From the NCBI GenBank assembly GCA_017395045.1, contig JAFPWG010000022.1:21410-85409 (forward strand): a stretch of 64,000 nucleotides of DNA, written 5' to 3'. Positions 49,572 through 64,000 of this stretch are shown here, in pieces (position 1 is the first letter of the stretch; every line of letters begins with the position of its first letter). The stretch is from Bacteroidales bacterium. GTDB taxonomy: Bacteria > Bacteroidota > Bacteroidia > Bacteroidales > UBA932. The position numbers and the translations under genes were made by a program. The notes below the pieces were generated by a model that saw only the letters and a list, made by a program, of their open reading frames with translations, ran no database searches and was not told the origin of the DNA.

Positions 49572-49679
49572 CGCACGTTCATGACAGAAATGCAAAGTAG
49601 AAACCTCAAAGACCGGTGTAGAATCCCCAAACATGGCTTGGGGCGGCTTTCTATTGCTATGATTTCGAGGAAGAATGCG

Positions 49680-49687
49680 TATTTTTG
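49680..49687 (+). promoter_or_regulatory. TATTTTTG -7 box for the second LytTR gene
   Basis: Only 8 bp separate this box from the ATG at 49696, so the transcript would be nearly leaderless. The alternative ATG at 49675 precedes the box. Confidence 0.5.
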
Positions 49688-49695
49688 TATCAAGA

Positions 49696-50442: not shown

Positions 50443-50497
50443 AAGACTGGAGTAGGATCATTCCTCCGAATAAAGTGAGGTTCGAACGAGGCAGTGA

Positions 50498-50665
50498 CCG
50501 TCGAATGTATCAACCTGACTATCAGCCACTTCCATCATCATGTCCGAGCAAATAAGCCCAGTTAATTATTCGTAATCAATTAATATTTCGTGAGTTACAT
50601 TCGACGCCCTAATGCCTGGAATTTGCATCCAGGGCCTTGGAGACATGGCAGAATATGGCTATAGC
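50498..50665. repeat. ~165-bp duplicated block with inverted ends, copy 1
   Basis: Starts with CCGTCGAATGTA and, about 100 bp later, contains the inverse TACATTCGACG (to ~50606), enclosing an AT-rich core with TTAATTATTCGTAATCAATTAATA. The similarity to 59317-59480 extends a further ~60 bp to GGAGACATGGCAGAATATGGCTAT. By eye about four-fifths identical between copies. No open frame of note on either strand. Fills the gap 50443-50682. Confidence 0.85.
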
Positions 50666-50682
50666 TCCTCATCGAATTGTTT

Positions 50683-51093
50683 TTAGAAATTCGCAGCCAT
50701 CAACTCCTGTCCCAACTGATGGATATGGGCAAGGATGGCTTTCTCTCGTTCGACCGATGGTTTTTTGAATCCATTGATATAGTTCCGCAGGAGCGTGGCA
50801 TTCATGCCGATGGAACGGGCGAACTCGGCAATGTTGATCTCTTTGTGGGTCAAGAAGAACTTCTGCATCGGCGTCGGCTGGGCGTCTTCATAAACGAAGC
50901 TCTCGAAACTGATGTCTTCATCGATATTACGCCAATGGATGCCGTCGAAACCGAAGGTATACTTCTCTCGCTCCTCGGCACTGGCAGCCCGAAGCCGAGG
51001 ATACCAAAGGAGAGACTGGCTGTAGATACGCCCGTCTTCGCCGCGACCGAAAATCTGGTCGTCGCTGAACCATATTTCTTTGATCTTAATCAT
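50683..51093 (-). CDS. DUF2442 domain protein with C-terminal HTH-like tail
   Basis: 136 residues from MIKIKEIWFSDDQIF at 51093. Residues 1-75 match DUF2442 (DGRIYSQSLLWYPRLRAASAEEREKYTFGFDGIHWRNIDEDI). The tail (~85-130) reads like a helix-turn-helix (INIAEFARSIGMNATLLRNYINGFKKPS), fitting an antitoxin/repressor. It directly follows the DUF4160 gene with a 13-bp gap. DUF4160-DUF2442 pairs are commonly treated as toxin-antitoxin-like modules; toxicity has not been shown here. Confidence 0.82.
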   Translation of the reverse strand: MIKIKEIWFSDDQIFGRGEDGRIYSQSLLWYPRLRAASAEEREKYTFGFDGIHWRNIDEDISFESFVYEDAQPTPMQKFFLTHKEINIAEFARSIGMNATLLRNYINGFKKPSVEREKAILAHIHQLGQELMAANF

Positions 51094-51106
51094 ATCCTTT
51101 TCCCTT

Positions 51107-51346
51107 TTACTGGTTAAAGCGCTTGTTCCACTGGGCGATGATGATGTCTGCATTCTCATCAATGACGGCCTTGATCTTCTTGAAGTCACCAGCCTTGATG
51201 CCCATCCGCTCCGCAACGACAAACTCTGTCCCGTTCCATTCGAACTTGGCCATCCCTCCATTCCCCTCCACATGGACATGCAAAGGGTCATGCTCCCGAC
51301 TGTAGAAGAAGAATGAGAATCCGAAGAATCTGAATATTTCTGGCAT
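51107..51346 (-). CDS. DUF4160 domain protein
   Basis: 79 residues from MPEIFRFFGFSFFFYSREHDPLHVHVEG at 51346; the HDPxHVHV motif and following FEWNGTEFVVAERMGIKAGDFKKI are typical of DUF4160. Likely acts with the downstream DUF2442 protein. A CATCTTTG box (51378-51371, minus strand) is a plausible promoter. An in-frame ATG at 51403 precedes that box and is less likely. Confidence 0.82.
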   Translation of the reverse strand: MPEIFRFFGFSFFFYSREHDPLHVHVEGNGGMAKFEWNGTEFVVAERMGIKAGDFKKIKAVIDENADIIIAQWNKRFNQ

Positions 51347-51443
51347 AATGTCTATTTTATCAATTACTACGGCAAAGATGGGAATTATTTTCAATACCCA
51401 CAAATAAAAGAATCTGGTTCGAGGAGTTCAATATACGCGCAGA

Positions 51444-51578
51444 TTAGTATTGACCTTGGAGTTCATGAGCAACACGGTTTAGCGCACGAATAGCATCCCA
51501 AAAGTTCGATAGTTTTTCATAGTAGTCTACTAAATGAAGGAAAAATCGAATGGTTTTTCCTTTTTTTGTTATGTCCAT
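51444..51578 (-). CDS. Possible 44-aa small protein spanning modular element F
   Basis: ATG at 51578 to TAA at 51444. The peptide begins MDITKKGKTIRFF and its middle is HLVDYYEKLSNFWDAIRAL. The same V-D-Y-x(4)-S-N core appears in all nine modular elements of the accessory region, here with a start codon. Because the hairpin of the element falls inside the coding part and most other copies lack a start, translation is doubtful. It may be a relic or an incidental reading of a structured element. Confidence 0.3.
   Translation of the reverse strand: MDITKKGKTIRFFLHLVDYYEKLSNFWDAIRALNRVAHELQGQY
51504..51567 (+). repeat. Modular element copy F (GTTCGA-15-GTCTAC + hairpin)
   Basis: GTTCGA at 51504-51509, 15 bp, GTCTAC at 51525-51530, TAAATG, then stem AAGGAAAAA/TTTTTCCTT (51537-51545, 51554-51562) and a T-run. 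Located in the 450-bp gap 51347-51797 between the DUF4160 gene start and the XRE gene end. I see no other gene in that gap. Confidence 0.85.
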
Positions 51579-51797
51579 ATCGCCGAGGGCTCTGGAAGGT
51601 CGGCGGGGGTTGGCCCCTATCATTTTCTAAGCACCTGATAATCAGGCGGTTGAAAAAGCATTGGTCCCAAGCCTGCCATAAAAGTAGGAGGCTTGGAACC
51701 GTCCTTTTTGTAACCTTCTGTATATAAGCAACTTACAAACCGCTAGGTGCCAACCCTATTTTTCCCGGACCACATTCACCGTTTATTTCTGATCCGA

Positions 51798-51998
51798 CTA
51801 GTCGTCCTTCTCCAGTTCAAAGATAGATTCGACTGGTTTACCAAAATACCTCGCGATCTTCAGGACCAAAACTCCGGAGGGGATGTAACCACCCGCCTCG
51901 ATGGAATTGATCGTCTGCCGACTCACTCCTACGGCGGCGGCAAGCTCCTGCTGGGTGATGTCCTTTATCGCCCGCTCAACTTTAACGGTGTTTTTCAT
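51798..51998 (-). CDS. XRE-family HTH regulator (66 aa)
   Basis: Single-domain Cro/CI-type helix-turn-helix: VERAIKDITQQELAAAVGVSRQTINSIEAGGYIPSGVLVLKIARYFGKPVESIF, the compact type usually paired with a membrane protein. Its start overlaps the stop of the upstream 148-aa membrane protein by 4 bp (ATGA at 51995-51998), so the two are translationally coupled and probably regulate their own transcription. Confidence 0.9.
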   Translation of the reverse strand: MKNTVKVERAIKDITQQELAAAVGVSRQTINSIEAGGYIPSGVLVLKIARYFGKPVESIFELEKDD

Positions 51999-52441
51999 TT
52001 CCCCTCCCTCCTGATCGCTTTCATCGTTAAGTTAAACTTCAAGATATACACCAGGAAATACAAGTAGATTGCGGCACATGTAAATGTCAGGAAATCGAGC
52101 CCCATAATGAACAGGATGCCTAAAGCCAGGATGATGGCCGTAAACCACAAACTCCAGACAAAAGACTGCATTCTGATCTGTCCTGTCATTTCATCTTCAT
52201 CCTTTTCTCGGGATAAAGCTATAAAGCAGAGTGAAACAAGCAAGCCCAGCATCCCCAGTGTTGAAATCAGATTAGCTTCTCCTTTGTAGAAAATATCGTC
52301 TCCAATGGCTACCCAGGGAACTTTAATCTCTGGAAGGTTGACACTAAAGAAAAGGCATACACATAATGCGGCAAATGGCAGAAACATCCACATTCCTACT
52401 TTCTTGTAGGAGTAAGGAAGAAGGTAATTACGTGTTTTCAT
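51995..52441 (-). CDS. Four-TM protein of unknown function coupled to XRE regulator
   Basis: 148 residues with transmembrane segments near 15-33, 57-75, 95-112 and 115-137, and a short polar loop SREKDEDEMTGQIRMQSF. The D-E-M-x-x-x-I-R-x-x-S pattern before the third helix is common in small membrane proteins that sit next to Cro-type XRE regulators (DUF2178/DUF3169-like layout). Function unknown. Confidence 0.7.
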   Translation of the reverse strand: MKTRNYLLPYSYKKVGMWMFLPFAALCVCLFFSVNLPEIKVPWVAIGDDIFYKGEANLISTLGMLGLLVSLCFIALSREKDEDEMTGQIRMQSFVWSLWFTAIILALGILFIMGLDFLTFTCAAIYLYFLVYILKFNLTMKAIRREGK

Positions 52442-52604
52442 ATGGCATTGACAGTATTACATCTGCCACAAATGTAAAAACAATTTTCCGAATTGTCAAA
52501 TAAACTTTACAAATTGTATGTTCGGTTTAACAATTCAGGATAATCACCTCGGCTGCAGGAAGCAACTGCGCGAATCTTTCCACCTCCCGGAGGTCCTCCA
52601 AAAG

Positions 52605-52666
52605 GTTCGATAATTTATCATAGTAGTCTACTACAGAGGATAAGTCGAAAGATTTGTCCTCTTTTT
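52605..52666 (+). repeat. Modular element copy E
   Basis: GTTCGA 52605-52610, 15 bp, GTCTAC 52626-52631, then AGAGGA/TCCTCT stem (52635-52640, 52657-52662) and a T-run. The minus-strand reading gives VDYYDKLSNLLEDLREVERFAQ-type peptide without a start codon (two in-frame TAA lie just upstream). It occupies the 312-bp gap 52442-52754, which holds nothing else except the promoter-like repeat below. Confidence 0.85.
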
Positions 52667-52693
52667 ATTACCTTTGTGAAAAACGCTTGCCAT
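52667..52693 (+). repeat. 27-bp promoter-like repeat, copy 1
   Basis: ATTACCTTTGTGAAAAACGC followed by TTGCCAT. It contains TACCTTTG and recurs, one A shorter, at 62618-62643 directly after element I. No plus-strand gene follows here, so it may be a leftover promoter. Confidence 0.7.
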
Positions 52694-52754
52694 GCAGATT
52701 CTTCAACTGGTAAATTTCTTCAACTGGTAAATTCAGGTTTACCGGTGTTAATAG

Positions 52755-53624
52755 CTACTTCATCAAGAATTCCGTCGGAGTTATTCCCGTCACCTTCTTG
52801 AACAGGCGGCTGAAATGGTGCGGATATTCAAATCCAAGCAAATCGGCAACTTCTCCTACGCTGAGCCCTTTCATCAGGAAGGTTTTGGCCTGGTCGATAA
52901 CGAAGGTGTGGATATAGCCGATGGCGGTTCCGCCAGTAGCTTGGTGAATCATATCGCCAAAATAGCGGGCCGAATAAGCCAGTTCTGATGCGCAGTACGA
53001 CACCGTTGGAAGGCCCTTTTCTTGCTGAAGACCTTTGGAGAAATAATCTACCAGCAGGCGGTGGAAGCGTTTGAGGATGTCGCTTTCGCCGCTTTCTTTT
53101 TGAGTGAGCTGCCGCAGGTAGATACGCTGGCAGTAGTCCAGAATCAGTTTCAAGTAACTGACGAGGATGTTTCTGAGCGAGAGTGAATCCTGGTTTTCCT
53201 GCATTTCCTTCCGCATCATCACCAAGAGCAGCGAAATCCGTTCCCATTCCCGGGGCTCCATCCGGAGCCAGTCCATATCAAAATAGGAGAAAAACGGGTT
53301 TTCTGGTATATATAGTTCCGGAGACCAGAGCAGCGCCCATCCGTTGATGTACAAGGGCGTGCCGTTGTCTTCTCCGCCGCCAATCTGTCCTGGTGCAACG
53401 GCAATGATGGAGCTATCTCCGACCAGAATGGATTTGGTACCATAGGACAGATATTTAGGGAATTGCTGCTGAATGAAAAGGCCGTAAACACCGTAATTGT
53501 TCAGGCTGTTGCGGAATGGCGACACCTCGTCATAACTGATGAGCGCCAACTGTGGATGCAGCTTCGGGGCGCCCACATATTTGGCGTAGACATTGGGATC
53601 ATCGACCTTCAGAATCTTCTTCAT
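52755..53624 (-). CDS. AraC-family transcriptional regulator
   Basis: 289 residues from MKKILKVDDPNVYAKYVG at 53624, directly after a TATCTTTG box (53639-53632, minus strand). An N-terminal ligand/cupin-like domain (~1-170) is followed by two C-terminal HTH motifs (~190-289), the last being LSVGEVADLLGFEYPHHFSRLFKKVTGITPTEFL. Divergent from the hydrolase/cyclophilin-like/flavodoxin operon, which it probably controls. A longer frame extends upstream across the divergent gene and is ignored. Confidence 0.92.
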   Translation of the reverse strand: MKKILKVDDPNVYAKYVGAPKLHPQLALISYDEVSPFRNSLNNYGVYGLFIQQQFPKYLSYGTKSILVGDSSIIAVAPGQIGGGEDNGTPLYINGWALLWSPELYIPENPFFSYFDMDWLRMEPREWERISLLLVMMRKEMQENQDSLSLRNILVSYLKLILDYCQRIYLRQLTQKESGESDILKRFHRLLVDYFSKGLQQEKGLPTVSYCASELAYSARYFGDMIHQATGGTAIGYIHTFVIDQAKTFLMKGLSVGEVADLLGFEYPHHFSRLFKKVTGITPTEFLMK

Positions 53625-53631
53625 AACCTTG

Positions 53632-53711
53632 CAAAGATAGTAAAATCTGCGAAATTGGTATAAAGTCAGCGAATATTTGTACAAAGACATGGATATCTCG
53701 CCGTACCTTTG
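53632..53711. promoter_or_regulatory. Divergent promoter region between araC-type and hydrolase operon
   Basis: Minus-strand TATCTTTG at 53639-53632 and plus-strand TACCTTTG at 53704-53711. The plus box is followed after only 4 bp by the ATG at 53716, so the hydrolase mRNA would be essentially leaderless. The ~64 bp between the boxes is the likely AraC operator. Confidence 0.6.
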
Positions 53712-53715
53712 CACC

Positions 53716-54774
53716 ATGAAACAAAGCATAATGATAGCCCTCACAGCCATCCTGCTGCTCGGCTGCAACCAGAACAAGAATATGAATACCCTGACTCTCA
53801 CCCAGGAATGGGACAAGACCTTCCCGAAATCCGAATTGGTCCATCACAGCAAAGTCACTTTCCACAATCGTTTTGGCATTGAACTGGCCGCCGACATGTA
53901 TGTCCCTAAAGAGATTCCCGGTCAAGGCGGGAATGACGCCGTAAAACTGCCCGCCATTGCCGTGAGCGGCCCCTTTGGCGCCGTGAAGGAGCAGACGGCC
54001 GGCATCTATGCGCAGCATATGGCCGAGAGAGGGTTCCTCACGATCGCCTTTGATCCCTCCTTTACCGGCGAATCCGGCGGCGAGCCCCGCAGAATGGCGT
54101 CACCGGACATCAATACGGAGGACTTCCTGGCGGCCGTGGATTTCCTTTCGACCCACGAAATGGTAGATCCCGAGCGCATCGGTATCATCGGCATCTGCGG
54201 CTGGGGCGGCATGGCCATCAATGCGGCGGCGCTGGATCCCCGGATCAAAGCAACGGTTACTTCCACCATGTATGACATGTCCCGCGTGGCGCGTGAAGGC
54301 TACTTTGGCAGCACCGATAATGAGGCCGCCCGCGACGCCCAGCGGCAGGCCTGGGCCTCCCAGCGCACCGAAGACTATCGCACCGGTACCTACAAGCGTG
54401 CCGGCGGCGTGGTCGATCCACTTCCGGACGATGCTCCCTGGTTCGTCAAGGACTATCACGCCTATTACAAGACGCCCCGTGGCTACCACAAGCGCAGCGG
54501 CAACTCCAACGACGGCTGGAATGTCATCGGCACCATGTCCTTCATGAACCAGCCCCTGCTGGACATGGCGGGCGAAATCAAGACCCCCGTGCTCATTATC
54601 CACGGCGAGAAGGCCCACAGCCGCTATTTCAGCGAAGGCGCCTTCACTAAACTGAAGGGCGACAACAAGGAACTCATGATCATCCCCGGAGCTGTCCATA
54701 CAGACCTCTATGATGATGTCGCCGGCGTCATTCCCTACGACAAGATGGAAGCCTTCTTCAAAGAGAACCTGTAG
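53716..54774 (+). CDS. Alpha/beta hydrolase lipoprotein
   Basis: 352 residues; lipoprotein signal ending LLLGC (Cys ~16). Dienelactone-hydrolase-like alpha/beta fold: GFLTIAFDPSFTGESGG, then IGIIGICGWGGMAINAA, where the nucleophile elbow G-x-C-x-G carries Cys in place of Ser, as in dienelactone hydrolases. Later LIIHGEKAHSRYFSEGAF and PGAVHTDLYD supply the acid and the His. First gene of a three-gene plus operon (2-bp gap to the next gene) opposite an AraC regulator. Confidence 0.88.
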   Translation: MKQSIMIALTAILLLGCNQNKNMNTLTLTQEWDKTFPKSELVHHSKVTFHNRFGIELAADMYVPKEIPGQGGNDAVKLPAIAVSGPFGAVKEQTAGIYAQHMAERGFLTIAFDPSFTGESGGEPRRMASPDINTEDFLAAVDFLSTHEMVDPERIGIIGICGWGGMAINAAALDPRIKATVTSTMYDMSRVAREGYFGSTDNEAARDAQRQAWASQRTEDYRTGTYKRAGGVVDPLPDDAPWFVKDYHAYYKTPRGYHKRSGNSNDGWNVIGTMSFMNQPLLDMAGEIKTPVLIIHGEKAHSRYFSEGAFTKLKGDNKELMIIPGAVHTDLYDDVAGVIPYDKMEAFFKENL

Positions 54775-54776
54775 TA

Positions 54777-55286
54777 ATGAAAGCCGCCATCCTTACATTA
54801 TTATCCTGTTTCATCCTGCCCTTGTCGGCCTGCGAAAAGATTCCGGTTCCACAGGAGCAGGAGGAGCAGCAGAAGAATCAGAAACAGCCCGAGGACAACG
54901 GGCAGCAGAACGGAAACGAAAACACGCAGACTATGACCATGGAAATCACTGCCGGAGGCAAGACCATCACGGCCACCCTCTCAGACAACGCCACCGCCAA
55001 GGCGCTGGCCGAAAAGTTGAAATCCGGATCCATAACCGTCGAAATGAGGGCCAATGGTTTTGAGCATTACGGACCGCTCGGATTCTCGCTGGAGAGGCAC
55101 GACGAGCAAGTTGCGGCCGTTTCCGGAGATATCATGCTCTACAACGGCAACAATATCTGCGTTTTCTACGGAAACAACAGCTGGTCCTATACCCCGCTGG
55201 GTAAGGTCGATGGAAAGACCGCTGATGAGCTGAAATCATTCTTCGGCACCGGCACAGTTACAGTCACATATTCTCTGAAAAAATAG
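54777..55286 (+). CDS. Cyclophilin-like fold lipoprotein
   Basis: 169 residues; signal peptide and lipobox (PLSAC, Cys ~19), then a Gln/Glu/Asn-rich linker (~25-55) and a cyclophilin-like beta-barrel domain: MEITAGGKTITATLSDNATAKALAEKL, GFEHYGPLGFSLERHDEQVAAVSGDIMLYNGNNICVFYG and a C-terminal LGKVDGKTADELKSFFG. The domain is common in Bacteroidota next to flavodoxins and hydrolases. No isomerase activity is implied. Confidence 0.85.
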   Translation: MKAAILTLLSCFILPLSACEKIPVPQEQEEQQKNQKQPEDNGQQNGNENTQTMTMEITAGGKTITATLSDNATAKALAEKLKSGSITVEMRANGFEHYGPLGFSLERHDEQVAAVSGDIMLYNGNNICVFYGNNSWSYTPLGKVDGKTADELKSFFGTGTVTVTYSLKK

Positions 55287-55291
55287 AAAGA

Positions 55292-55831
55292 ATGAAACGG
55301 GTAATAGTTATTTCGACGAGCCTTCGTCATGGTTCGAACAGCGACATGCTCGCTGACCAGTTCGTGGAAGGTGCCCAGAGCGCCGGAAACGACGTTGAAA
55401 AGATTTCCCTCATGGGCAAGGATGTCCAGTTCTGCAAGGGCTGCCTTGCCTGCCAGAAGCTGGGTCGCTGCGTCATCAAGGACGACGTGAACGACATCAT
55501 AGCCAAGGTCTTGGAGGCCGATGTCGTTTGCTGGGCGACGCCCATCTACTACTATGAGATGAGCGGGCAGATGAAGACGCTTATCGACCGCTTGAACGCC
55601 ATGTATCCGCTGGACTACAAGTTCCGCGACGTATATCTGCTGACCACTGCTGCCGAAGACGGGGAAGAGACGCCTAAACGCGCCGTAGCCGGCCTCACGG
55701 GATGGATAGACTGCTTCCCGAAGAGCCGTTTGGCAGGCACACTCTTCTGCGGCGGCGTTAACGACCCTCGCGATATAGTGGGCAACAACAAGCTGCAGGA
55801 AGCCTTCGAATTGGGAAAAGCGATTTGTTAA
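55292..55831 (+). CDS. Flavodoxin/NADPH-dependent FMN reductase family protein
   Basis: 179 residues. The FMN-binding loop is ISTSLRHGSNSDMLADQF at the N-terminus; FCKGCLACQKLGRCVIKDD carries four Cys, and VVCWATPIYYYEMSGQMKTLIDRL is the family's flavin/dimer segment. Probably reduces quinones or other electrophiles, or supplies electrons. Third gene of the AraC-associated operon (5-bp gap); element G with its terminator hairpin follows. Confidence 0.9.
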   Translation: MKRVIVISTSLRHGSNSDMLADQFVEGAQSAGNDVEKISLMGKDVQFCKGCLACQKLGRCVIKDDVNDIIAKVLEADVVCWATPIYYYEMSGQMKTLIDRLNAMYPLDYKFRDVYLLTTAAEDGEETPKRAVAGLTGWIDCFPKSRLAGTLFCGGVNDPRDIVGNNKLQEAFELGKAIC

Positions 55832-55899
55832 ATTCGAATTTATCGGTGTAAAGCCTCTATGAATCGCTGGATTTCCAGCAGCCCTTCGATGCAGCGGAG

Positions 55900-55969
55900 G
55901 TTCGAGATTCGGAGTGTTTGGTCTACACAAAAACGCTAACAGATTGAAAATAAATCGGTTAGCGTTTTT
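55900..55969 (+). repeat. Modular element copy G, acting as terminator of the hydrolase operon
   Basis: GTTCGA 55900-55905, 15 bp, GTCTAC 55921-55926, ACA, stem AAAAACGCTAAC/GTTAGCGTTTTT (55929-55940, 55958-55969). It lies between the flavodoxin stop and the convergent Fic gene. The reverse reading gives VDQTLRISNLRC..., the most diverged peptide of the family. Confidence 0.85.
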
Positions 55970-55983
55970 ACTATTTATATAAA

Positions 55984-57090
55984 CTAATCCTCGACAAGAA
56001 TGTAACAGGTGTTCTTGCTCCCCTCTTCTCCTTTCACCAAGATTCCCTTTTCTATCAAATCATTGATGTCTCGAAGGGCGGTGGCCTGGGAGGTCTTGCA
56101 GATCTTGGCCCACTTCGTGGTTGTGAGTTTGCCTTCGAATCCGTCCCATAACATGTTCACCACCTTGACTTGGCGTTCATTCATGGCCGCGTCACGGTGA
56201 TCCTGCCAAAACATGGATTTCTTGACTACGCGACTTACTATGGCAATGCTGCGCTCCATTGCGTCTTTCAGGGTCCGCAGGAACCACTCGAGCCATTTGG
56301 TGATGTCGACATCTCTTATTGTTGTACTTTCCAATGCATCGTAGTATCCATTCTTATTCCGGAGGATTTCTGCGGACATACTATAGTAGCGATGAGGCAT
56401 TCCATCGGCCCGGGCCAGCAGCATATCGGTGATGGTTCTTGTCAACCGGCCATTTCCGTCATCGAACGGATGGATGGCCACGAACCACAGGTGAGCGACC
56501 GCTGCTTTCAGGACAGGATCGATATCGTTCTCATTGTTAACCCAATCCAGGAACAGCGTCATTTCCTTGGAGACATCTGCCGATGCCGGGGCTTCGTAGT
56601 GAACCTTCTCCTTTCCGAATGCCCCGGAGACAACCTGCATAGGTTCTTCTCCAACTCTCCAACCCGCCACTGTTATAGGATGGATACCGCTGCGGCCTGT
56701 GGGAAACAAAGCGGCATGCCAATTGAACAGACGCTGCTCGCTCAACTCATCGGAGTAATTACGGACGGCATCGATCATTACCTGAACAATCCCCTCCGTG
56801 TAGTGATCCGGCTCGGGAAGACCTTCGGTGGGAATACCGAGATGCTTTGCTACGGACGAGCGCACCCTGTCTGCATTCAACAGAACCCCTTCTATCTCGT
56901 TGGATCGGATGACGTCTTCAGTCATAACGTCCAGAGATGTCTTGGACTGAATACCGAATCCGAGACCGCTCATCATTCCGGCGATGCGTCCTTCCAATAG
57001 ACGCACTTTGGAAAGAAGGTTCAATAGTCTGTCACTTTCCCAACGGAAATGGGGCCAGTCAGGATATTGCCAGATGTAGTAAGGTCTCAT
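55984..57090 (-). CDS. Fic family protein (DUF4172-type N-terminus), class II inhibitory motif
   Basis: 368 residues from MRPYYIWQYPDWPHFRWES at 57090. The Fic core HPFDDGNGRLTR (HxFx(D/E)GNGRxxR) is intact, so AMPylation or related nucleotide transfer onto protein targets is expected. The N-terminal segment VIRSNEIEGVLLN carries the (S/T)xxxE(G/N) auto-inhibitory motif of class II Fic proteins. The C-terminal ~70 residues form a winged helix (KWAKICKTSQATALRDINDLIEKGILVK). Stand-alone gene with no separate antitoxin visible. Confidence 0.93.
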   Translation of the reverse strand: MRPYYIWQYPDWPHFRWESDRLLNLLSKVRLLEGRIAGMMSGLGFGIQSKTSLDVMTEDVIRSNEIEGVLLNADRVRSSVAKHLGIPTEGLPEPDHYTEGIVQVMIDAVRNYSDELSEQRLFNWHAALFPTGRSGIHPITVAGWRVGEEPMQVVSGAFGKEKVHYEAPASADVSKEMTLFLDWVNNENDIDPVLKAAVAHLWFVAIHPFDDGNGRLTRTITDMLLARADGMPHRYYSMSAEILRNKNGYYDALESTTIRDVDITKWLEWFLRTLKDAMERSIAIVSRVVKKSMFWQDHRDAAMNERQVKVVNMLWDGFEGKLTTTKWAKICKTSQATALRDINDLIEKGILVKGEEGSKNTCYILVED

Positions 57091-57235
57091 AACTCGCTTA
57101 TTTTCTTGCAAAAATATACAAATGAAGCGAATCTTACAACCATTCACATCAAATTATGAAGAGAATTGAGCCTACATTCGCATCATAGCAGGTCCAGAAT
57201 AGTTCGAGGAGACGTATGTTAACCACCTTATAATC

Positions 57236-57439
57236 TCAACTCTCCGCTTTATCAATCATCAAATTAAGTAAATCATCCTCAACACTTTCCGCGAATCTAT
57301 CCAACTTTTCAATGTCCTCCAGGAGGTTCGAGTTTTTACCTGTGTAGTCTACTAAATAGGACATTTCTTCGGAAGTGTCCTTTTTTTTGTGTCTAGACCA
57401 TTGTAGAGTCCCCATTTCAAGTTCGAAATTGATTTTCAT
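57236..57439 (-). CDS. Possible 67-aa small protein spanning modular element D
   Basis: Longest open version of the modular-element peptide: M...GTLQWSRHKKKDTSEEM, then YLVDYTGKNSNLLEDIEKL and an acidic tail. Comparing copies D and E, differences in this frame are mostly synonymous or conservative (CTC/CTT, CTG/TTG, Glu/Asp), which argues the core was once coding. However, the hairpin of element D lies inside the frame, and other copies lack starts, so expression is uncertain. Confidence 0.35.
   Translation of the reverse strand: MKINFELEMGTLQWSRHKKKDTSEEMSYLVDYTGKNSNLLEDIEKLDRFAESVEDDLLNLMIDKAES
57326..57388 (+). repeat. Modular element copy D
   Basis: GTTCGA 57326-57331, 15 bp, GTCTAC 57347-57352, then AGGACA/TGTCCT (57358-57363, 57376-57381) closing on a TTCG loop and an eight-T tail. 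It sits in the 400-bp gap 57091-57493; no other gene is seen in that gap except the small overlapping frame above. Confidence 0.87.
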
Positions 57440-57493
57440 TTGAAATCTTGTATCTTTGCTTTATGAAACGACATTGACTACTAATAACTCTTT

Positions 57494-57940
57494 ATGAACG
57501 AACTGTACCATTTAGACACTGATGTGTTGCCGAGTATGCCCACTCCTCATGACTGTGTTATAAAGACGATTCTTGTTGACAAAGAAAAGCAGCTCATTTC
57601 TTTTGTTTTCGAGGATAATCTTTCGGAATATGATTCTATAGCTCATCAAAGACCAAATGCAAAGTCATTGGTCATTAAATACCATTTCTATAATGCAGTG
57701 GAGGACTATGAACTATATCGGTTCATGAAGCCTTCTATATGTCATCGTCACGGCGGTTATAAATGTTTAACCGAGTTTAAGAAAGGAAAACACGATGCAT
57801 TACTAAAACTCACCAAGCACAATTTAGAGTATCTCCACCACTATGTTGCGTACAAAGACATGATTATTCATCTATGGGCAGAGACGAGCATTGTGCTGCA
57901 ACTCGATGTGGACACTGTCGAATATGAGTGGAAATACTGA
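57494..57940 (+). CDS. Protein of unknown function, AT-rich gene
   Basis: 148 residues, no signal peptide, no transmembrane helix, no recognised motif. Mixed alpha/beta composition: starts MNELYHLDTDVLPSMPTPHDC, a strand-rich middle (KQLISFVFEDNLSEYDSIAHQRP), His-rich HNLEYLHHYVAYKD near residue 125. It is markedly more AT-rich and uses A/T-ending codons more than the flanking genes, suggesting foreign origin. It occupies its own unit between elements D and H. A start codon follows an AT-rich leader with TATCTTTG at about 57450. Confidence 0.6.
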   Translation: MNELYHLDTDVLPSMPTPHDCVIKTILVDKEKQLISFVFEDNLSEYDSIAHQRPNAKSLVIKYHFYNAVEDYELYRFMKPSICHRHGGYKCLTEFKKGKHDALLKLTKHNLEYLHHYVAYKDMIIHLWAETSIVLQLDVDTVEYEWKY

Positions 57941-57987
57941 CTCTAATATTTGAACTCTAACACCGCCTTGAATCCGTTGATGAATTC

Positions 57988-58057
57988 GTTCGAAATTTCT
58001 AACAGCTGTTCTACTAAACAGGCCAGCCTTTCGGGGCTGGCTTTTTCTGTTTAGTAG
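57988..58057 (+). repeat. Modular element copy H
   Basis: GTTCGA 57988-57993, 15 bp, TTCTAC 58009-58014 (one change from GTCTAC), then a long inverted repeat CTACTAAACAG-GCCAGCC / GGCTGGC-CTGTTTAGTAG (58011-58028 and 58035-58057). It follows the unknown gene at 57494-57940 and probably terminates it. Its hairpin belongs to the 77-bp repeat shared with tRNA-fMet. Confidence 0.85.
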
Positions 58058-58098
58058 CGGAGGCTTCGCCTCTTTCACCCCCGCCGCTACGCGGCTGC
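58022..58098 (+). repeat. 77-bp repeat, copy 2 (duplicate of the tRNA-fMet flank)
   Basis: Matches 48899-48975 at 76 of 77 positions (single C/T difference). The match ends at CGGCTGC on the right; on the left it starts exactly at the hairpin, not in the tRNA. The remaining sequence to 58217 shows no gene. Confidence 0.9.
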
Positions 58099-58217
58099 AG
58101 AAGCCGTCTTCCGGGGCGGGCTTGATCGTCAGCATCATTTACGGCCAAGCCCGGGAATCCAGGCGTGAAATGGAATTGTCTTGTCCTGATATAGGTTTAC
58201 CGAAACTGTCACCCCGA

Positions 58218-59099
58218 CTAGTATTTGATCTTGAAATAATCAAGCAGCGCCTTGTAATTGTCCTGAGCGGTCAGGCAGGTATCGGTAAGATAGCCGTTGA
58301 TGTGCCCCCATTCACTGAGACCGCGGTAATAGAACCATTTCAGGTCATCGGTGATGATGAACGGAACCACCCCGTTTGCCAGGCATTCCTTGAACATGAC
58401 AAGACGCCCCACGCGACCGTTTCCATCCTGGAAGGGATGTATCAACTCGAATCTTTGGTGAAGGTCGATAATATCCTCCAACGTCTTCTCTATCTTGGCG
58501 TTGTATTCGGAAAGCAGGGCCTTCATCCGGGTATGTACCTGATCCGGCGTGCAAGTATCTCGACCACCTACCTCGTTGGGCAGTTTCTTGTAATCACCGA
58601 CGTTGAACCATTCTTTCCTGCTGTCGGACGTACCAGTTTTCAAGATTCGATGCAATTCTTTGACCATGCTCTCCGACAGCCGTTCTTCAGCCCTGTCGAT
58701 AATAAGGTCGATGCAACGGAAGTGGTTTGTCGTTTCAACGATATCATCGACATTGACAGTCTCATCGGTGATGCCGATTGTATTGGTCTCGAAGATGTAA
58801 CGGGTCTGGTCGTGGGTCAGGCGACTGCCTTCAATATGGTTTGAATTGTAGGTCAGGTCAATCTGGGTACGGTGATAGATGCCTCCGCTGACCCTCCCCT
58901 CCTTCTCTTCCCGGAGCCGTTTCAGAAGCGGCGAGACCTTCGATTTGCTCTTTTTAGGCAGAGGAGCATCGGCAGGGATGTTCCAGGTCTTCCCCGCCAG
59001 AAATGCCCCTTGCATTTTCCCCGCATTGCACCAATTCCGGACAGTCCGCTCAGGAAGGCCGTGCATCTCGGCATATTGACTGACAGTAATCAGGTTCAT
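58218..59099 (-). CDS. Fic family protein with N-terminal DNA-binding domain
   Basis: 293 residues from MNLITVSQYAEMHGLPERTVRNWCNAGK at 59099, a MerR/excisionase-like winged helix (residues 1-45) predicted to bind DNA. The inhibitory motif is YNSNHIEGSRL (SxxxEG), and the Fic core HPFQDGNGRVGR is intact. A TTG at 59111 could add four residues. A perfect 16-bp palindrome lies upstream (59147-59162), with one half-site repeated at 59104-59112, so autoregulation is likely. Confidence 0.92.
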   Translation of the reverse strand: MNLITVSQYAEMHGLPERTVRNWCNAGKMQGAFLAGKTWNIPADAPLPKKSKSKVSPLLKRLREEKEGRVSGGIYHRTQIDLTYNSNHIEGSRLTHDQTRYIFETNTIGITDETVNVDDIVETTNHFRCIDLIIDRAEERLSESMVKELHRILKTGTSDSRKEWFNVGDYKKLPNEVGGRDTCTPDQVHTRMKALLSEYNAKIEKTLEDIIDLHQRFELIHPFQDGNGRVGRLVMFKECLANGVVPFIITDDLKWFYYRGLSEWGHINGYLTDTCLTAQDNYKALLDYFKIKY

Positions 59100-59103
59100 A
59101 TCT

Positions 59104-59162
59104 ATCGGCAAGTTTTCTTAATCAACTACTACAAATATAACATTTTTTGCCGATATCGGCAA
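59104..59162. promoter_or_regulatory. Palindromic operator candidate for the HTH-Fic gene
   Basis: TTGCCGATATCGGCAA (59147-59162) is a perfect 16-bp palindrome. ATCGGCAAG recurs at 59104-59112 next to the start codon. The two sites bracket the presumed promoter of the Fic gene. Confidence 0.6.
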
Positions 59163-59224
59163 GAATTTCAGGAATCTTGAACACTTTCCGCTAACCCTTC
59201 AAGTTTCACGAGATCCTCCAGATA

Positions 59225-59280
59225 GTTCGAGAAATTATCATAGTTGTCTACTAAACAGGCCAGCCATCAGGCTGGCTTTC
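59225..59280 (+). repeat. Modular element copy C
   Basis: GTTCGA 59225-59230, 15 bp, GTCTAC 59246-59251, TAAACAG, stem GCCAGCC/GGCTGGC (59259-59265, 59270-59276), T-rich tail. The minus-strand peptide VDNYDNFSNYLEDLVKLEG is preceded by an in-frame TGA inside the hairpin, so this copy cannot be translated as in copy D. Confidence 0.87.
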
Positions 59281-59316
59281 TCGTATCTGCCACCATACGC
59301 CTAACCCGGGCCGTGG

Positions 59317-59480
59317 CCGTCGAATGTATCAATCTGATTATCAGCCGCTTCCATCATTTTGCCCGGGCAAATAAGCCTAGCCAATTATTCGTAATCGATT
59401 AATCTATCGCGAATTACATTCGACGCTCTGATACCCGGAGTTTGCATCCAGATCATTGGAGACATAGCAGAATGTGGCTA
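59317..59480. repeat. ~165-bp duplicated block with inverted ends, copy 2
   Basis: CCGTCGAATGTA at the left, TACATTCGACG at ~59415-59425, and the same right extension to GGAGACATAGCAGAATGTGGCTAT as copy 1 (50498-50665). It fills most of the gap between elements C and B; no gene is seen in 59281-59651 apart from these repeats. Confidence 0.85.
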
Positions 59481-59512
59481 TTAAACCTCATTTCTCTGAG
59501 ATCCTTCAAAAG

Positions 59513-59562
59513 GGTCGAGTTTTTACCGGTGTAGCCTACACAGAAAAGCGCAAGTGCTTTTT
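59513..59562 (+). repeat. Modular element copy B
   Basis: GGTCGA 59513-59518 (one change from GTTCGA), 15 bp, GCCTAC 59534-59539 (one change from GTCTAC), then the small stem AAAAGC/GCTTTT (59544-59549, 59556-59561) and T-run. Located 90 bp before the DUF4421 gene. Confidence 0.75.
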
Positions 59563-59651
59563 TATTGCAGTTTTCTTTTGGCCATCCTTTGAAATTGACG
59601 ATTGGAATTGTGGGAAAACACGCTTCCTTTGTGGATACAGTGAAACAAACC

Positions 59652-60824
59652 ATGCTTGATCTTCGAAAAACACTCATTCTTCTCGTCCTTCTGCCGGTCT
59701 TTTGCATTCCGGCGCATTCTCAACGGCCGGATTCCTTTTGGGGAAAGATTGTCGACATGATTTCTGCTCCATCCATGGAACTGGACACGAGTGCAGTCTA
59801 TCAGCCGGCCGCACGTTGGAGCGTCGCGGTGTCAGGCGAACTGCACCAGGCGGGAATCACCCAGGAAAACAACATTGATTGTTCCTTTACGTACATGGAA
59901 GAAGAAGGAGGCGGATTCGATAAGGTGGATGCGTTCGCCTCATCCAAGCTCCTGGGCGGCGTGGACAAGGGAATCGGCATCCAGGTCGGGTACGGCAACC
60001 TTACTCTGGGTTGGAACCAGCGAATCGGAGGTGACTAGGGGAACACCAACACGACTTTCTCCTTTGACTATCTCGCCCCGGGCTATGCCATTCAATTGCA
60101 GTATTTCGACTTCCGCCGGCCTGTTGACTATGAAATGAGAATATCGCTCGGGGACGGGTGGGATATCGAAGGCTCCGGCCAGACCGATAATCCGGGGCGC
60201 ATGACCACGTTCATCGCCGATGCGTTCTACGCCTTCAACCGGCGCAGTTTCGCCTATTCCGCAGCCTACAAAGGGAATGTGGTCCAGCGGCGTTCCGCCG
60301 GGACTTGGATGTTCGGGGTCAAATACCTTCAGGGATCGGTCGAGTATGATCCGGACGAAGACATCGTTTCCGACATGTTGCTCGGGCTGGTCCGGCAAGA
60401 CACCCGGCAGGTTTCCTTCGGGGGCGGTTTTTCGTACAATCTGGTTCCTTTCCACCGACAGCCCGGACCGGACGGAAAGGGACTCCGTAACCTGACTTTC
60501 AACGTGACGGCCATTCCCATGGTCACCCTCTTCAACCAGTTTTCCTCCACCATGATCAACAATTGGGAGGAAGGGGATCCGGTCCCGACCAAGAATGTCA
60601 TCAACGGCAAGTTGCACGTGAACTATGTGTTCAAGGCTGGGGCCATTTATTCCTGGGACCGGTTTTTTCTCGGCCTCTCGGGCAGTTATGACAGCTACAA
60701 CTACAAAGGGGCGACCAAGATTCCCGAAGAACTGTCGGATTCCGGAGTTGTTTTCGACAAAATCCACTCTTCCGGCCGTTTCAGCCGTTGGTCCGCAAGC
60801 CTGAAGTTTTGTGTGAAGTTTTAG
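59652..60824 (+). pseudogene. DUF4421 family protein, interrupted by an in-frame TAG
   Basis: Start ATG at 59652 (signal peptide MLDLRKTLILLVLLPVFCIPAHS). The frame reads through GYGNLTLGWNQRIGGD, meets TAG at 60036-60038 and continues without shift as GNTNTTFSFDYLAPGYAIQLQYF to the stop at 60822-60824. Together 390 codons give one full-length DUF4421-type protein, probably an outer-membrane beta-barrel. A single T-to-A change would restore Lys (AAG). TAG is used as a normal terminal stop elsewhere in the window, so suppression is unlikely and the gene is most simply a recent pseudogene. Confidence 0.8.
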
Positions 60825-60835
60825 CAGGGCGACAC

Positions 60836-60937
60836 AATCTGTCCCTCTGTTCATTTGAATATCCCCAGCATTTCTCCCGGATACTCAAAAAGGAATTCGG
60901 AACAGTTCCGAGTCGATTCTTGCAGAATCAGTTATCA
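60836..60937 (+). pseudogene. AraC-family C-terminal fragment
   Basis: In frame, the sequence gives LCSFEYPQHFSRILKKEFG followed by TVPSRFLQNQL, the last helix-turn-helix and C-terminus of an AraC regulator. It lines up with GFEYPHHFSRLFKKVTGITP of the intact protein at 52755. Nothing upstream belongs to such a protein, so this is a truncated remnant immediately before element A. Confidence 0.7.
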
Positions 60938-60987
60938 GGACTAACTCTTTGTGCAAATCCTTCAACCTTCTTAAGATCCTCCAGAAG

Positions 60988-61045
60988 GTTCGAGAATTTA
61001 CCGGTATAGTCTACGAAACAGGCCAGCCTTAGGGCTGGCTTTCGT
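60988..61045 (+). repeat. Modular element copy A
   Basis: GTTCGA 60988-60993, 15 bp, GTCTAC 61009-61014, GAAACAG, stem GCCAGCC/GGCTGGC (61022-61028, 61033-61039), then TTTCGTTTTC. The reverse peptide is VDYTGKFSNLLEDLKKVEGF. It lies within the 485-bp gap between the DUF4421 pseudogene and the methyltransferase gene; the rest of that gap is covered by neighbouring entries. Confidence 0.87.
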
Positions 61046-61166
61046 TTTCACAGGCCCATCCTCGTCCTCAAAGAAAGCACTATTCGTGGACGAAACAAAG
61101 GATCTCCTTTGGAGATGAGGAGAAATGTGGCTATCTTCACAACAATAAACCGATCCATCCTTCCCT

Positions 61167-61313
61167 ATGCAGATAGAACAGTTTTTCCCCGACAATCTCG
61201 ACCTCGTCGAGAGAATGGTCACGGACGTATGGGGCAGCCCGGACCATCGCCATGGCATTTGTACATTTCGCAGGATATGGTTATTTTTACAACGGACAAT
61301 CGGATTGAGATGA
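61167..61313 (+). CDS. Possible 48-aa leader or truncated gene
   Basis: ATG at 61167 opens MQIEQFFPDNLDLVERMVTD, a plausible N-terminus of a larger cytosolic protein, but the frame ends at 61313, where its TGA overlaps the ATG of the methyltransferase gene (ATGA). It could be a translationally coupled upstream peptide or the 5' remnant of a deleted gene. A TATCTTCAC box at about 61131 precedes it, and a similar TATTTTTAC is repeated at about 61281. Confidence 0.3.
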   Translation: MQIEQFFPDNLDLVERMVTDVWGSPDHRHGICTFRRIWLFLQRTIGLR

Positions 61314-61795
61314 AACAAGTTCTGGGATACTTTCTGGGTTTTGCCATTTTTATCGCGGGAATTCCGTCTTTGATGTGGGTAGTCTCCAGAATGCCTTCCT
61401 GGTCGGATATTCCCGTGACGCGTCTATCTTTATCGGCCTTTATTGCATTAGCGGGATTATCGCTCAGTGTATGGAGTATCGTGTACATGAAACGTGTCGG
61501 GAAGGGCAATCCCTTTGACGCGATGGGGCACGAGGTGGCACCAAGAACCAAGCGCTTGATGACAGACGGACCCTATCGATTGTCCCGGAATCCGATGCTG
61601 TCCGGGACCTATCTTTACTACATCGGCGTTGTCCTTGCCTTCTGGAACTGGTGGGCGCTGCTGGTTTTTGCGATTGTGGCCGGATTGATGGTGCTGCAAG
61701 TCCGATCGGAAGAAAAGCGTCTGGAGGCCGATTTCGGAGAAGAGTACCTGGAATATAAAAAGCGTACGGGGCGATTCATCACTTTCAAGAAATGA
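61310..61795 (+). CDS. Isoprenylcysteine methyltransferase-like small membrane protein
   Basis: 161 residues with four to five transmembrane helices. The C-terminal signature GPYRLSRNPMLSGTYLYYIGV ... EEKRLEADFGEEYLEYKKRTGRFI is that of the ICMT/PEMT-like methyltransferase family; NP and the E-x-x-L-x-x-x-F-G-x-x-Y segment bind SAM in the family. The likely substrate is a lipid or small thiol/phenol. Overlaps the downstream hydrolase start by 4 bp. Confidence 0.85.
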   Translation: MKQVLGYFLGFAIFIAGIPSLMWVVSRMPSWSDIPVTRLSLSAFIALAGLSLSVWSIVYMKRVGKGNPFDAMGHEVAPRTKRLMTDGPYRLSRNPMLSGTYLYYIGVVLAFWNWWALLVFAIVAGLMVLQVRSEEKRLEADFGEEYLEYKKRTGRFITFKK

Positions 61796-62553
61796 CCTTC
61801 AACACCTATGGCGACAAAGGGAATCCCAGTCTGCTCCTGATTCCCGGGCTTGGAGTATCTTACGAGATATTCCTGCCGCTGATCGATATCCTGAAAGACA
61901 GGTTCCACATCGTTGCGGCCGGCATTGACGGCTTCCTGCTGGGGAAGCCATCGGCCTTTACCTCCGTCGATGACCAGGCCTGGCAGATTCTCAGATACGT
62001 TCATGAAAAACTGGGCGGCCATTTGGACATAGCCTACGGACTGTCTCTGGGCGGGAAAATCCTCTCCCGGATGATGGAACGCAATGAGATTGTCATTGAC
62101 CACGCCATCATGGACGCCGCGCCACTGCTTCCGCTTCCCAAGTGGAGCGTGGATCCCTTGCGATACTATCAGAGCCTCAATGTATGGACCTGCTACCACT
62201 GGACGGGCTTCTGGCGATGGGTTTTCCATTCCCATTACTTCGATGTCCTGCTTGAAGAATGCAAGAAAGTGTGGCCGTCCGGCAAGGGAAAAGCCGTGCG
62301 TGAAGGATACAAGGACGTCTATACCCACAAATTGGAATCCATCCAGGGGGCCGACATCCACTATTGGTATGGAACCAAAGAGGCCTTTGTGGCTAAACCT
62401 CAAGCCAGGCACCTGTGTTCCCTGCACCCTGATACCCACGTCGAGATATTCCCGGGGATGAATCACGGACAACTCTTGGTCGACCATCCGGAAGAAGTGG
62501 CCAACAGACTGGAAATGCTTCTTATTTCAATCCCCAAACCTGTTGAAGAATGA
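61792..62553 (+). CDS. Alpha/beta hydrolase
   Basis: 253 residues, cytosolic. SLLLIPGLGVSYEIFLPLI gives the oxyanion HG-like turn; DIAYGLSLGGKILSRM contains the nucleophile elbow G-L-S-L-G (Ser). The catalytic His is probably in FPGMNHGQLLVDHPEEV. Coupled to the methyltransferase by an ATGA overlap, which suggests the two act on the same molecule. Element I follows. Confidence 0.87.
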   Translation: MTFNTYGDKGNPSLLLIPGLGVSYEIFLPLIDILKDRFHIVAAGIDGFLLGKPSAFTSVDDQAWQILRYVHEKLGGHLDIAYGLSLGGKILSRMMERNEIVIDHAIMDAAPLLPLPKWSVDPLRYYQSLNVWTCYHWTGFWRWVFHSHYFDVLLEECKKVWPSGKGKAVREGYKDVYTHKLESIQGADIHYWYGTKEAFVAKPQARHLCSLHPDTHVEIFPGMNHGQLLVDHPEEVANRLEMLLISIPKPVEE

Positions 62554-62586
62554 TTGAAATCGGAGTAACCCTTCGAGGAGAGTGCG

Positions 62587-62613
62587 GTTCGATAGTATAT
62601 CATTGTAGTCTAC
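62587..62613 (+). repeat. Modular element copy I (no hairpin)
   Basis: GTTCGA 62587-62592, 15 bp, GTCTAC 62608-62613. The terminator hairpin is missing; instead the promoter-like repeat (62618-62643) follows at once. The reverse peptide is VVDYNDILSNRTLLEGLL. Confidence 0.75.
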
Positions 62614-62617
62614 AACA

Positions 62618-62643
62618 ATTACCTTTGTGAAAACGCTTGCCAT
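62618..62643 (+). repeat. 27-bp promoter-like repeat, copy 2
   Basis: ATTACCTTTGTGAAAACGCT followed by TGCCAT, one A shorter than the copy at 52667-52693. The TACCTTTG inside it (62620-62627) is well placed to drive the methyltransferase-like gene at 62697. Confidence 0.7.
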
Positions 62644-62696
62644 CTGTGGGCTGGACTGCTCCCCAGGCAAAGACAAACCTGAAATCAGATTAGTTT

Positions 62697-63371
62697 ATGG
62701 ACAAGAATAGACTCTTCCTGCAAGCCGTCGGCAAATTTCTGCTCGGGGTTATCGTCATTGGCCTGCTGCTTTTCCTGCCGGCGGGGTCGCTTCAGTATTG
62801 GCAAGCCTGGCTGCTGATGGGCATCCTGTTTGTGCCGATGTTCTTCGCCGGCCTGGTCATGATGGCGAAGAATCCGGAATTGCTTCGCAAGCGGCTGAAT
62901 GCCAAAGAAGAAGAGAAGGAGCAGCAGACGGTCGTGAAACTCAGCGGCCTCCTGTTTGTCGCCGCGTTTGTCGTGGCGGGCCTTAACTGGCGGTTTGACT
63001 GGTGCGTGCTGCCTGACTGGGCCGTTTGGGTATCGGCAGGGCTATTCCTGATCTGCTATCTGCTCTACGCGGAGGTGTTGCGGGAGAACACCTACCTGTC
63101 CCGGACCATCGAGGTTCAGGAGAATCAGAAAGTCATCGACACGGGACTCTATGGAGTCGTCCGACATCCGATGTACATGGCCACGACCGTCCTGTTCCTG
63201 GCCATGCCGCTGGTACTCGCTTCACCTTTTTCTCTCCTCATTATGTTGCTTTATATTCCGCTGATTGCCAAGCGGATAAAGAATGAGGAAAAGGTCCTGG
63301 AAGAAGGGCTGGAGGGTTACAGGGAGTACAAGCAGAAGGTAAAGTACAAAGTGATTCCCTTCATCTGGTAA
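62697..63371 (+). CDS. Isoprenylcysteine carboxylmethyltransferase family protein
   Basis: 224 residues with five to six transmembrane helices. The core signature IDTGLYGVVRHPMYMATTVLFLAMPLVL and EEKVLEEGLEGYREYKQKVKYKVIPFIW is a textbook ICMT/PEMT match (RHPMY and E-x-x-L...G-Y-x-x-Y). Longer N-terminal part than the 161-aa protein at 61310, to which it is only distantly similar. It likely methylates a small lipophilic substrate in the inner membrane. The 232 bp that follow (63372-63604) show no gene. Confidence 0.88.
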   Translation: MDKNRLFLQAVGKFLLGVIVIGLLLFLPAGSLQYWQAWLLMGILFVPMFFAGLVMMAKNPELLRKRLNAKEEEKEQQTVVKLSGLLFVAAFVVAGLNWRFDWCVLPDWAVWVSAGLFLICYLLYAEVLRENTYLSRTIEVQENQKVIDTGLYGVVRHPMYMATTVLFLAMPLVLASPFSLLIMLLYIPLIAKRIKNEEKVLEEGLEGYREYKQKVKYKVIPFIW

Positions 63372-63604
63372 ATACCCCTTGTCGGTTAAGCCCATCGATG
63401 AAGGATTGAAGTCCGCCCCAGCGGGCGCCTTCCGGTCGTCGCATCGGCAGCAGGTGAAGTCCTCTTGGTAGATTCTGGCAGAACAGTTATCCATCGATCT
63501 GTCGTCAGTTCCATTCGCCCTCCCGGAGACAGGAGTCGGCGTCCCGGGTTATTTGGTCTTTCGCCGGAATGTCGTTATCTTTACAATCGTAAAACACTAT
63601 TCAA

Positions 63605-64000
63605 ATGGTTCCTGAGAGTTCGCTCATCCTGATGGCCGTCGATGCCGTTTTGGGCATTGTCATTCCCGTCTGCCTGTCCGTCTATCTGGTGCGTAAGCAT
63701 CATGCCAGGCTGTCTACCATCCTGATCGGTGCCGGTACATTCATCCTGTTCGCCCTGGTTCTGGAAAGCATCCTGCATCAACTGGTCCTGAAGGGACCGC
63801 ATGGCGCATCCATTCTGGACAATACGCTCCGATATGCCATTTATGGCGGACTGGCCGCCGGAATCTTTGAAGAAACCGGCCGCTTCCTTTCCATGAAGTT
63901 CCTGATGAAAAAGGAGCCCTCCGAACCCCTCCCCGGCATTGCCTACGGTATCGGACACGGAGGTGTGGAAATGCTCATCATCTTCGGCATAACGATGATC
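63605..64000 (+). CDS. YhfC-type intramembrane protease-like protein (partial)
   Basis: First 132 codons of a polytopic membrane protein running off the right edge, from the ATG at 63605; therefore not flagged as a complete frame. Four transmembrane segments are visible. The motif AAGIFEETGRFLSMKFL followed by IAYGIGHGGVEMLIIFG (EExGR and HGGxE) matches the YhfC family of putative CAAX-protease-like membrane metalloproteases. Preceded by TATCTTTAC at about 63582. Confidence 0.8.
   Translation, partial: MVPESSLILMAVDAVLGIVIPVCLSVYLVRKHHARLSTILIGAGTFILFALVLESILHQLVLKGPHGASILDNTLRYAIYGGLAAGIFEETGRFLSMKFLMKKEPSEPLPGIAYGIGHGGVEMLIIFGITMI

Follow-up and report, generated by a model that had tools for sequence, protein, structure and literature searches.

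A cassette array behind tRNA-Met in Bacteroidales, very probably built by large serine recombinases that insert at tRNA 3' ends

What kind of element leaves nine short, co-oriented copies of one motif between unlike accessory genes? The question is raised by a stretch of 64,000 nucleotides from a Bacteroidales bacterium (assembly GCA_017395045.1, contig JAFPWG010000022.1), here called the window, in which the motif GTTCGA-N15-GTCTAC recurs between 51.5 and 62.6 kb. A preliminary description of this DNA proposed an integron- or cassette-style system. According to the comparisons presented below, the nine elements are very probably attR-type right-hand ends of small mobile elements, inserted by a family of large serine recombinases (LSRs) at the 3' ends of tRNA genes, here that of tRNA-Met. 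The cassettes end in a severed-looking enzyme tail because the insertion site lies within the enzyme's own gene. Both the coding frame in the elements and the tRNA-Met as their anchor had been overlooked in the preliminary description.

The motif and its anchor

A scan of the window located exact copies of the motif at 51504 (site F), 52605 (E), 55900 (G), 57326 (D), 59225 (C), 60988 (A) and 62587 (I). Two near-exact copies, H (57988, one mismatch) and B (59513, two mismatches), complete the nine, and all lie on the plus strand. One change per box had been reported for both near-exact copies, which is correct for B; H is altered in its second box only. When up to two mismatches were allowed, 13 matches were obtained, compared with 4.55 expected (sd 2.22; 100 shuffles, maximum 11). 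The four additional two-mismatch matches, at 46035, 51125, 51815 and 56441 (the last on the minus strand), look like chance. One of the four, 46035, lies in the first 48 kb, which contain no exact or one-mismatch copy, in agreement with the earlier statement that the motif is absent from the core. In the whole genome (2.67 Mb), 13 exact matches correspond to only seven distinct sites, because the end of contig C32 is duplicated at the start of contig C1 (12,087 of 12,088 bases identical; window 51913-64000) and regional counts are thereby doubled. With this duplication allowed for, no exact copy was found in the rest of the genome, so that the motif is not common elsewhere. Among 150 genomes, 34 including its own carry the exact motif, and 32 of these belong to the same genus, which may be Cryptobacteroides, some of the matches there being due to chance. 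A stricter pattern retrieved 76 stretches from a public collection, each labeled as a metagenome-assembled genome of Bacteroidales, Bacteroidia, Prevotellaceae or Bacteroides, and a weaker form of the system also occurs in other families of the order.

The array begins to the left of the range given earlier, at a tRNA-Met(CAT) gene (48818-48891, plus strand) that sits behind hisS. The 3' end of this gene reads GGTTCGA-N10-CGCTAC and forms the anchor site, an attB-derived half. A tRNA-Met match occurs on the same contig for 27 of the 51 exact sites of the genus; without exception these 27 sites, from 16 genomes, are located downstream of it on its strand, at distances of 0.7-16.9 kb. We dropped hisS as a candidate anchor in favor of tRNA-Met; in three genomes (G014, G015 and G054) the array follows tRNA-Met even with hisS located elsewhere or turned round. 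Contigs end 13-388 nt downstream of tRNA-Met in ten genomes, as expected if the array is variable.

Alignments between relatives break at the motif, which bears out the earlier idea of a recombination junction at which cassettes change their neighbors. Common left sequence exceeds 100 bp in 99 alignments, 78 of which end at offset 25-34; this corresponds to the end of GTCTAC. Among 84 alignments with more than 100 bp of common right sequence, 28 start at offset 15-24 and 22 at -10 to 4, and four run through. Grouped by shared left cassette, 18 of 22 families break at the site, with 53 of 63 pair ends at offset 20-36. The 58 tRNA-Met junctions and 144 site junctions contain 28 recurring left-end families, 23 of which have unrelated left neighbors; 12 of the 28 occur behind both tRNA-Met and sites, so tRNA and sites are interchangeable. 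The array consists of co-oriented tandem units bounded by a short box pair that is shared with the tRNA 3' end, rather than by a full copy of that end.

Severed tails and the recombinases of relatives

On the minus strand, all nine sites contain a short open frame that starts with V, six residues and SN (ST in B), continues into a helix-like stretch and stops; in the window, these tail frames have neither a start codon nor a head. The headless tails are VDYYEKLSNFWDAIRALNRVAHELQGQY at F (site 51504-51530, tail 51444-51530), VDYYDKLSNLLEDLREVERFAQLLPAAEVIILNC at E (52605-52631, tail 52527-52631), VDQTLRISNLRCIEGLLEIQRFIEALHR at G (55900-55926, tail 55840-55926), VDYTGKNSNLLEDIEKLDRFAESVEDDLLNLMIDKAES at D (57326-57352, tail 57236-57352), VEQLLEISNEFINGFKAVLEFKY at H (57988-58014, tail 57943-58014), VDNYDNFSNYLEDLVKLEGLAESVQDS at C (59225-59251, tail 59168-59251), VDYTGKFSNLLEDLKKVEGFAQRVSPDN at A (60988-61014, tail 60928-61014) and VDYNDILSNRTLLEGLLRFQSFFNRFGD at I (62587-62613, tail 62527-62613), while B, with its one change per box (59513-59539, tail 59453-59539), has the tail VGYTGKNSTLLKDLREMRFNSHILLCLQ. 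The 27-bp sequence of site G is found identically in many relatives. In an alignment of 45 sites, length differences amount to 0, 3 or 6 bases and are located immediately left of GTTCGA. Stops in codons 10-20 occur in 5 of 148 family tails; each of the remaining five frames has 33-65, and the control 57 of 140. The boxes are excluded from these counts, as they create stops in other frames. Mismatches in 74 pairs of tails fall on codon positions 3, 1 and 2 in the numbers 488, 324 and 160, and single-base codon changes in the tail frame are synonymous in 257 cases and nonsynonymous in 191.

The likely source of the tails is found in relatives. In genomes G071 and G019, a minus-strand open frame of more than 490 codons reaches into the tRNA-Met gene at its 3' end and has its stop there; its last residues are VAGAGLEPATSGL or VAEAGLEPTTSGL. 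Judged by its domains, this frame is a large serine recombinase: PF00239 (Resolvase) and PF07508 (Recombinase) score above cut-off in all four recombinases scanned, the PF13408 zinc ribbon is below cut-off in two and has no match in the other two, and a PDB profile search matched the A118 integrase (4kis, E 1.8e-21). In the genus, 21 of 92 genomes contain PF07508 hits, 24 in total. A convergent tRNA was detected by ARAGORN at the recombinase 3' end in 16 of the 24 (Met 2, Leu 4, His 4, Asn 4, Arg 2), and in 14 of these 16 the recombinase frame reads through the junction into the tRNA antisense strand, so that the gene overlaps attL. Among the eight hits without an ARAGORN tRNA, at least five look by eye like other recombinase types, and one (L308) has a tRNA-Arg core by pattern. 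The 50 nt to the right of the 16 tRNAs fold at -12.8 to -24.5 kcal/mol, which places a hairpin in the final codons of the recombinase.

Five complete elements, at tRNA-Met, tRNA-His, tRNA-Arg and twice at tRNA-Asn, connect these genes with the tails. By sequence, the recombinase gene of the complete elements is convergent with the tRNA, its frame runs through hairpin and core into the tRNA antisense strand, and the tail at the far end is in frame. In 5/5, the core hexamer lies in phase with the recombinase frame, and in 5/5 a core with N15 to the T-loop box, upstream of the gene, opens an in-frame headless tail, these elements having been picked for a tail already seen and not as a random sample. 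In each of the five, T-loop box and core are separated by N10 at the tRNA and by N15 at the opposite end. Core-to-core spans are 5,619, 5,815, 5,357, 5,950 and 7,872 bp; the Met element has four candidate cores upstream of the gene, of which the nearest was used. The T-loop box matches the tRNA type, with GTTCGA in four and GTTCAA being the form of the Asn targets themselves. Recombinase 3' ends fused to tails were found at 3 of 152 array sites (L141, L064 and L062), all three in frame and belonging to truncated genes.

The two spacings have a parallel in known serine integrases, in which the zinc-domain motif lies 5 bp nearer the center in attB than in attP (PMC3783163). At the one half-site analyzed, the spacings of the tRNA (10) and the element (15) match this 5-bp shift. 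At type-2 loci of the genus, a same-strand tRNA is present on the tail side in 5 of 12, and by eye the ends of the sites look like tRNA ends, with L116 deviating by one base. The genome of the window has a type-2 element of its own (C33:2612, L028; one mismatch) with a tail of the WIPDPCNP class, and no tRNA for this tail was found on its 9-kb stretch. A protein of about 300 aa that resembles a replication initiator by eye adjoins the type-2 tails at L113, L118 and L223.

These observations suggest the following course of events. Head and tail would be joined in a single gene as long as the element is an excised circle. Integration would split this gene, with the head staying by the tRNA under a tRNA-encoded C-terminus and the native C-terminal tail left at the far end of the element, and the hairpin in the last recombinase codons would replace the tRNA terminator displaced by the insertion. 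Newcomers would insert beside the tRNA and shift older elements outwards, and co-oriented cassettes would accumulate as a result. The cassettes of the window, which have a hairpin on the left, a tail on the right and no recombinase, may be what deletions have left behind, or non-autonomous units mobilized in trans. As a tentative and rather doubtful extension, the tail swap could act as a switch, in which the native tail of the circle promotes integration, the tRNA-encoded tail renders the enzyme inactive or changes its direction, and the spare tail keeps recombinase-less cassettes mobile. A recombinase element that excises together with its neighbors would then gain the tail of the outermost cassette as its C-terminus, and selection would thereby keep tails readable in cassettes unable to express them alone.

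Profile searches with the tails for a head gene (92 and 393 genomes) returned mostly short open frames, since heads and tails lie apart; weak hits in G047, G080 and G027 (E 0.05-0.1) proved real. Short tail-peptide searches of phages, plasmids and PDB gave nothing useful. Viral contigs contained no relatives by site pattern or by three recombinases, and plasmids and phages yielded distant recombinases only (42 and 203 records), all below 60% identity.

Alternative explanations and related systems

Several findings weigh against the origin of the array from LSR elements. The window array contains neither a recombinase, as already stated in the preliminary description, nor a clear remnant of one: only the tRNA antisense strand resembles an LSR end, and all other resemblances have E values of at least 0.015. 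The linked recombinase that had been suggested for a search was found as an LSR at tRNA ends of relatives and not in the window, and the single PF07508 hit of the own genome adjoins tRNA-His. Of the 58 tRNA-Met junctions, two hold a long recombinase frame (L067, L268) and one a fragment (L247), while 2 of the 16 recombinases with a convergent tRNA (L309, L311) stop 75 and 55 nt short of it. Cassette left ends do not keep the recombinase frame, 12 codons being open in 95, 103 and 99 of 149 in the three frames, so they need not be recombinase remnants. Among the 22 cassette families, three continue across the site in all of their compared pairs and one has its end at another place; the compared pairs are not independent. 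The boxes appear frozen across the family, a conservation that is partly imposed because the sites were collected by these very boxes. In the synonymous test, one antisense frame (248/243) comes close to the tail frame; taken alone, this test leaves the strand undecided, and it is the stop counts that decide it. Circle, excision and transfer were not observed.

The strongest competitor is a passive array, in which remnants are reshuffled by homologous recombination at tRNA-like repeats and site-specific movement has ceased. It agrees with the absence of recombinases from the window cassettes and from beside most array sites (remnants in 3/152), and with a DUF4421 gene that is broken. The breaks, however, coincide with a box that measures about 6 bp and has otherwise unrelated flanks, which is too short for ordinary homologous exchange, and only 5/148 tails have acquired a stop in codons 10-20; we consider this explanation unlikely, though it keeps some weight. 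An ordinary terminator family without recombination would account for the hairpin after the second box, where 139 of 149 family sites have a 50-nt energy of -8 kcal/mol or lower (control 57 of 140), often accompanied by a T run (118/149 vs 49/140). However, the hairpins differ in sequence and move with the right-hand cassette, whereas the site moves with the left-hand one, and the sites are located behind tRNA-Met and not behind genes genome-wide. Together with the breakpoints, which strain alignments do have at the elements, this leaves the terminator explanation with next to no probability.

An integron or another tyrosine-recombinase array with attC-like sites is very improbable, although the cassettes resemble those of an integron in their small size, common orientation and varied content (Fic, XRE and others). 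Tyrosine integrases (PF00589) are present in 16 of 16 genomes searched and one, in G003, lies directly behind a tRNA-Met, but in none of the other genomes does a PF00589 hit adjoin the array. The best match of the integron integrase model TIGR02249 in the own genome scores 74 bits against an NCBIfam cut-off of 265. The tails share their frame with serine recombinase genes, whose 3' ends they also match in place, and a 10/15 spacing is characteristic of serine integrases. Of the system proposed in the preliminary description, the cassettes therefore stand and the integron or tyrosine type does not. Integron attC sites were rejected by eye, the box being GTTCGA here, unlike the GTTRRRY consensus. 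An Xer-type or other tyrosine recombinase was also rejected; G003 shows that tyrosine elements target tRNA-Met too, and the tails remain unexplained by them. In that genome (C43, 36.2-54.6 kb; L273, L074), two tRNA-Met copies are 18 kb apart with the tyrosine integrase behind the first.

For the origin from LSR elements, the ssrA-specific islands of Dehalococcoides with the serine recombinase DsiB are the nearest precedent. These islands lie in tandem behind the 3' end of an RNA gene and some lack integration genes, while dsiB is on the reverse strand, overlaps attL and has its stop codon outside the island (PMC3146451). The authors of that study suggested in 2011 that dsiB might work solely in the circular form or when situated behind an island that supplies the required 3' fragment (PMC3146451). 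The array resembles these islands in its tandem units at an RNA gene end and, in relatives (14/16; none in the window), in a recombinase gene that overlaps attL. It differs in that the genes targeted encode tRNAs (Met, His, Asn, Arg, Leu), its 3' fragments are identified and codon-conserved, its window cassettes measure 0.3-3.3 kb and its tRNA and element sites are 5 bp apart in spacing. LSRs of the A118 type share the Resolvase and Recombinase domains and the 5-bp attP/attB motif shift (PMC3783163); in contrast to them, the attachment site here is inside the recombinase gene 3' end and the target is a tRNA end. The staphylococcal cassette chromosome (ccr) likewise combines a serine recombinase, insertion at one gene end and tandem cassettes (in part after PMC3146451). 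Its target, unlike here, is a protein gene. We know of no swap of the recombinase's own C-terminus in that system. In SSV-type archaeal viruses, attP lies inside the integrase gene and the integrase is a tyrosine recombinase; mycobacteriophage BPs also has a tyrosine recombinase as integrase, and its altered gene is the repressor. With both, the present elements share an attP inside a gene of their own, which integration cuts or alters (for BPs, PMC4557955). Integron arrays are similar in their small, co-oriented, mixed-cargo cassettes beside a fixed anchor, and differ from the present array in its serine recombinase chemistry, its lack of attC and the lack of an integron integrase above cut-off in the own genome.

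A literature search, confined for most papers to their listing, found no account of this arrangement at tRNA genes in Bacteroidales. The array would represent an integron-like cassette system built on serine recombinases and tRNA genes and spanning a whole genus. It makes the suggestion of 2011 directly testable, namely that a self-cut recombinase works only with its missing 3' fragment (PMC3146451). In addition, the tails provide a simple sequence tag for finding such arrays, and tRNA-specific recombinases with matched sites may be of interest for genome engineering.

Cassettes of the window

The units between the nine plus-strand sites carry different genes, in accordance with the fixed orientation and differing cargo described earlier. 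Cassette 1 (48892-51530), between tRNA-Met and F, starts with a terminator-like hairpin and contains a LytTR regulator (49675-50442) together with minus-strand genes for DUF2442 and DUF4160 proteins; its left end is found again behind array sites in L154 and L196. The F-E cassette (51531-52631) has a left-end hairpin and encodes, on the minus strand, an XRE protein (HTH_3) and a membrane-like protein of 148 aa. In E-G (52632-55926), an AraC-type regulator on the minus strand is accompanied by an alpha/beta hydrolase, a small lipoprotein-like gene and an NADPH-FMN reductase. A Fic protein with DUF4172 (minus) occupies G-D (55927-57352), and a second Fic protein (minus) occupies H-C (58015-59251). 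The D-H cassette (57353-58014), with a plus-strand gene of 148 aa that has no Pfam match, is also present in L062 (86.6% over 745 bp), the homology extending from D-48 to H+28 and stopping at the second box of H. The C-B cassette (59252-59539) is geneless and harbors a repeat unit of about 170 bp; the array has two copies of this repeat, at 50490-50662 and at about 59309-59481, and each of them matches L063 10888-11060. In B-A (59540-61014), the DUF4421 gene is broken by an in-frame stop, and a remnant at 60842-60940, ahead of site A, resembles by eye the C-terminal helix-turn-helix of an AraC regulator. The last cassette, A-I (61015-62613), encodes a PEMT-type methyltransferase and an alpha/beta hydrolase. 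No hairpin is evident after I, and just past this site a short, apparently cut-off frame (62632-62700) resembles by eye the start of a DUF3795 protein.

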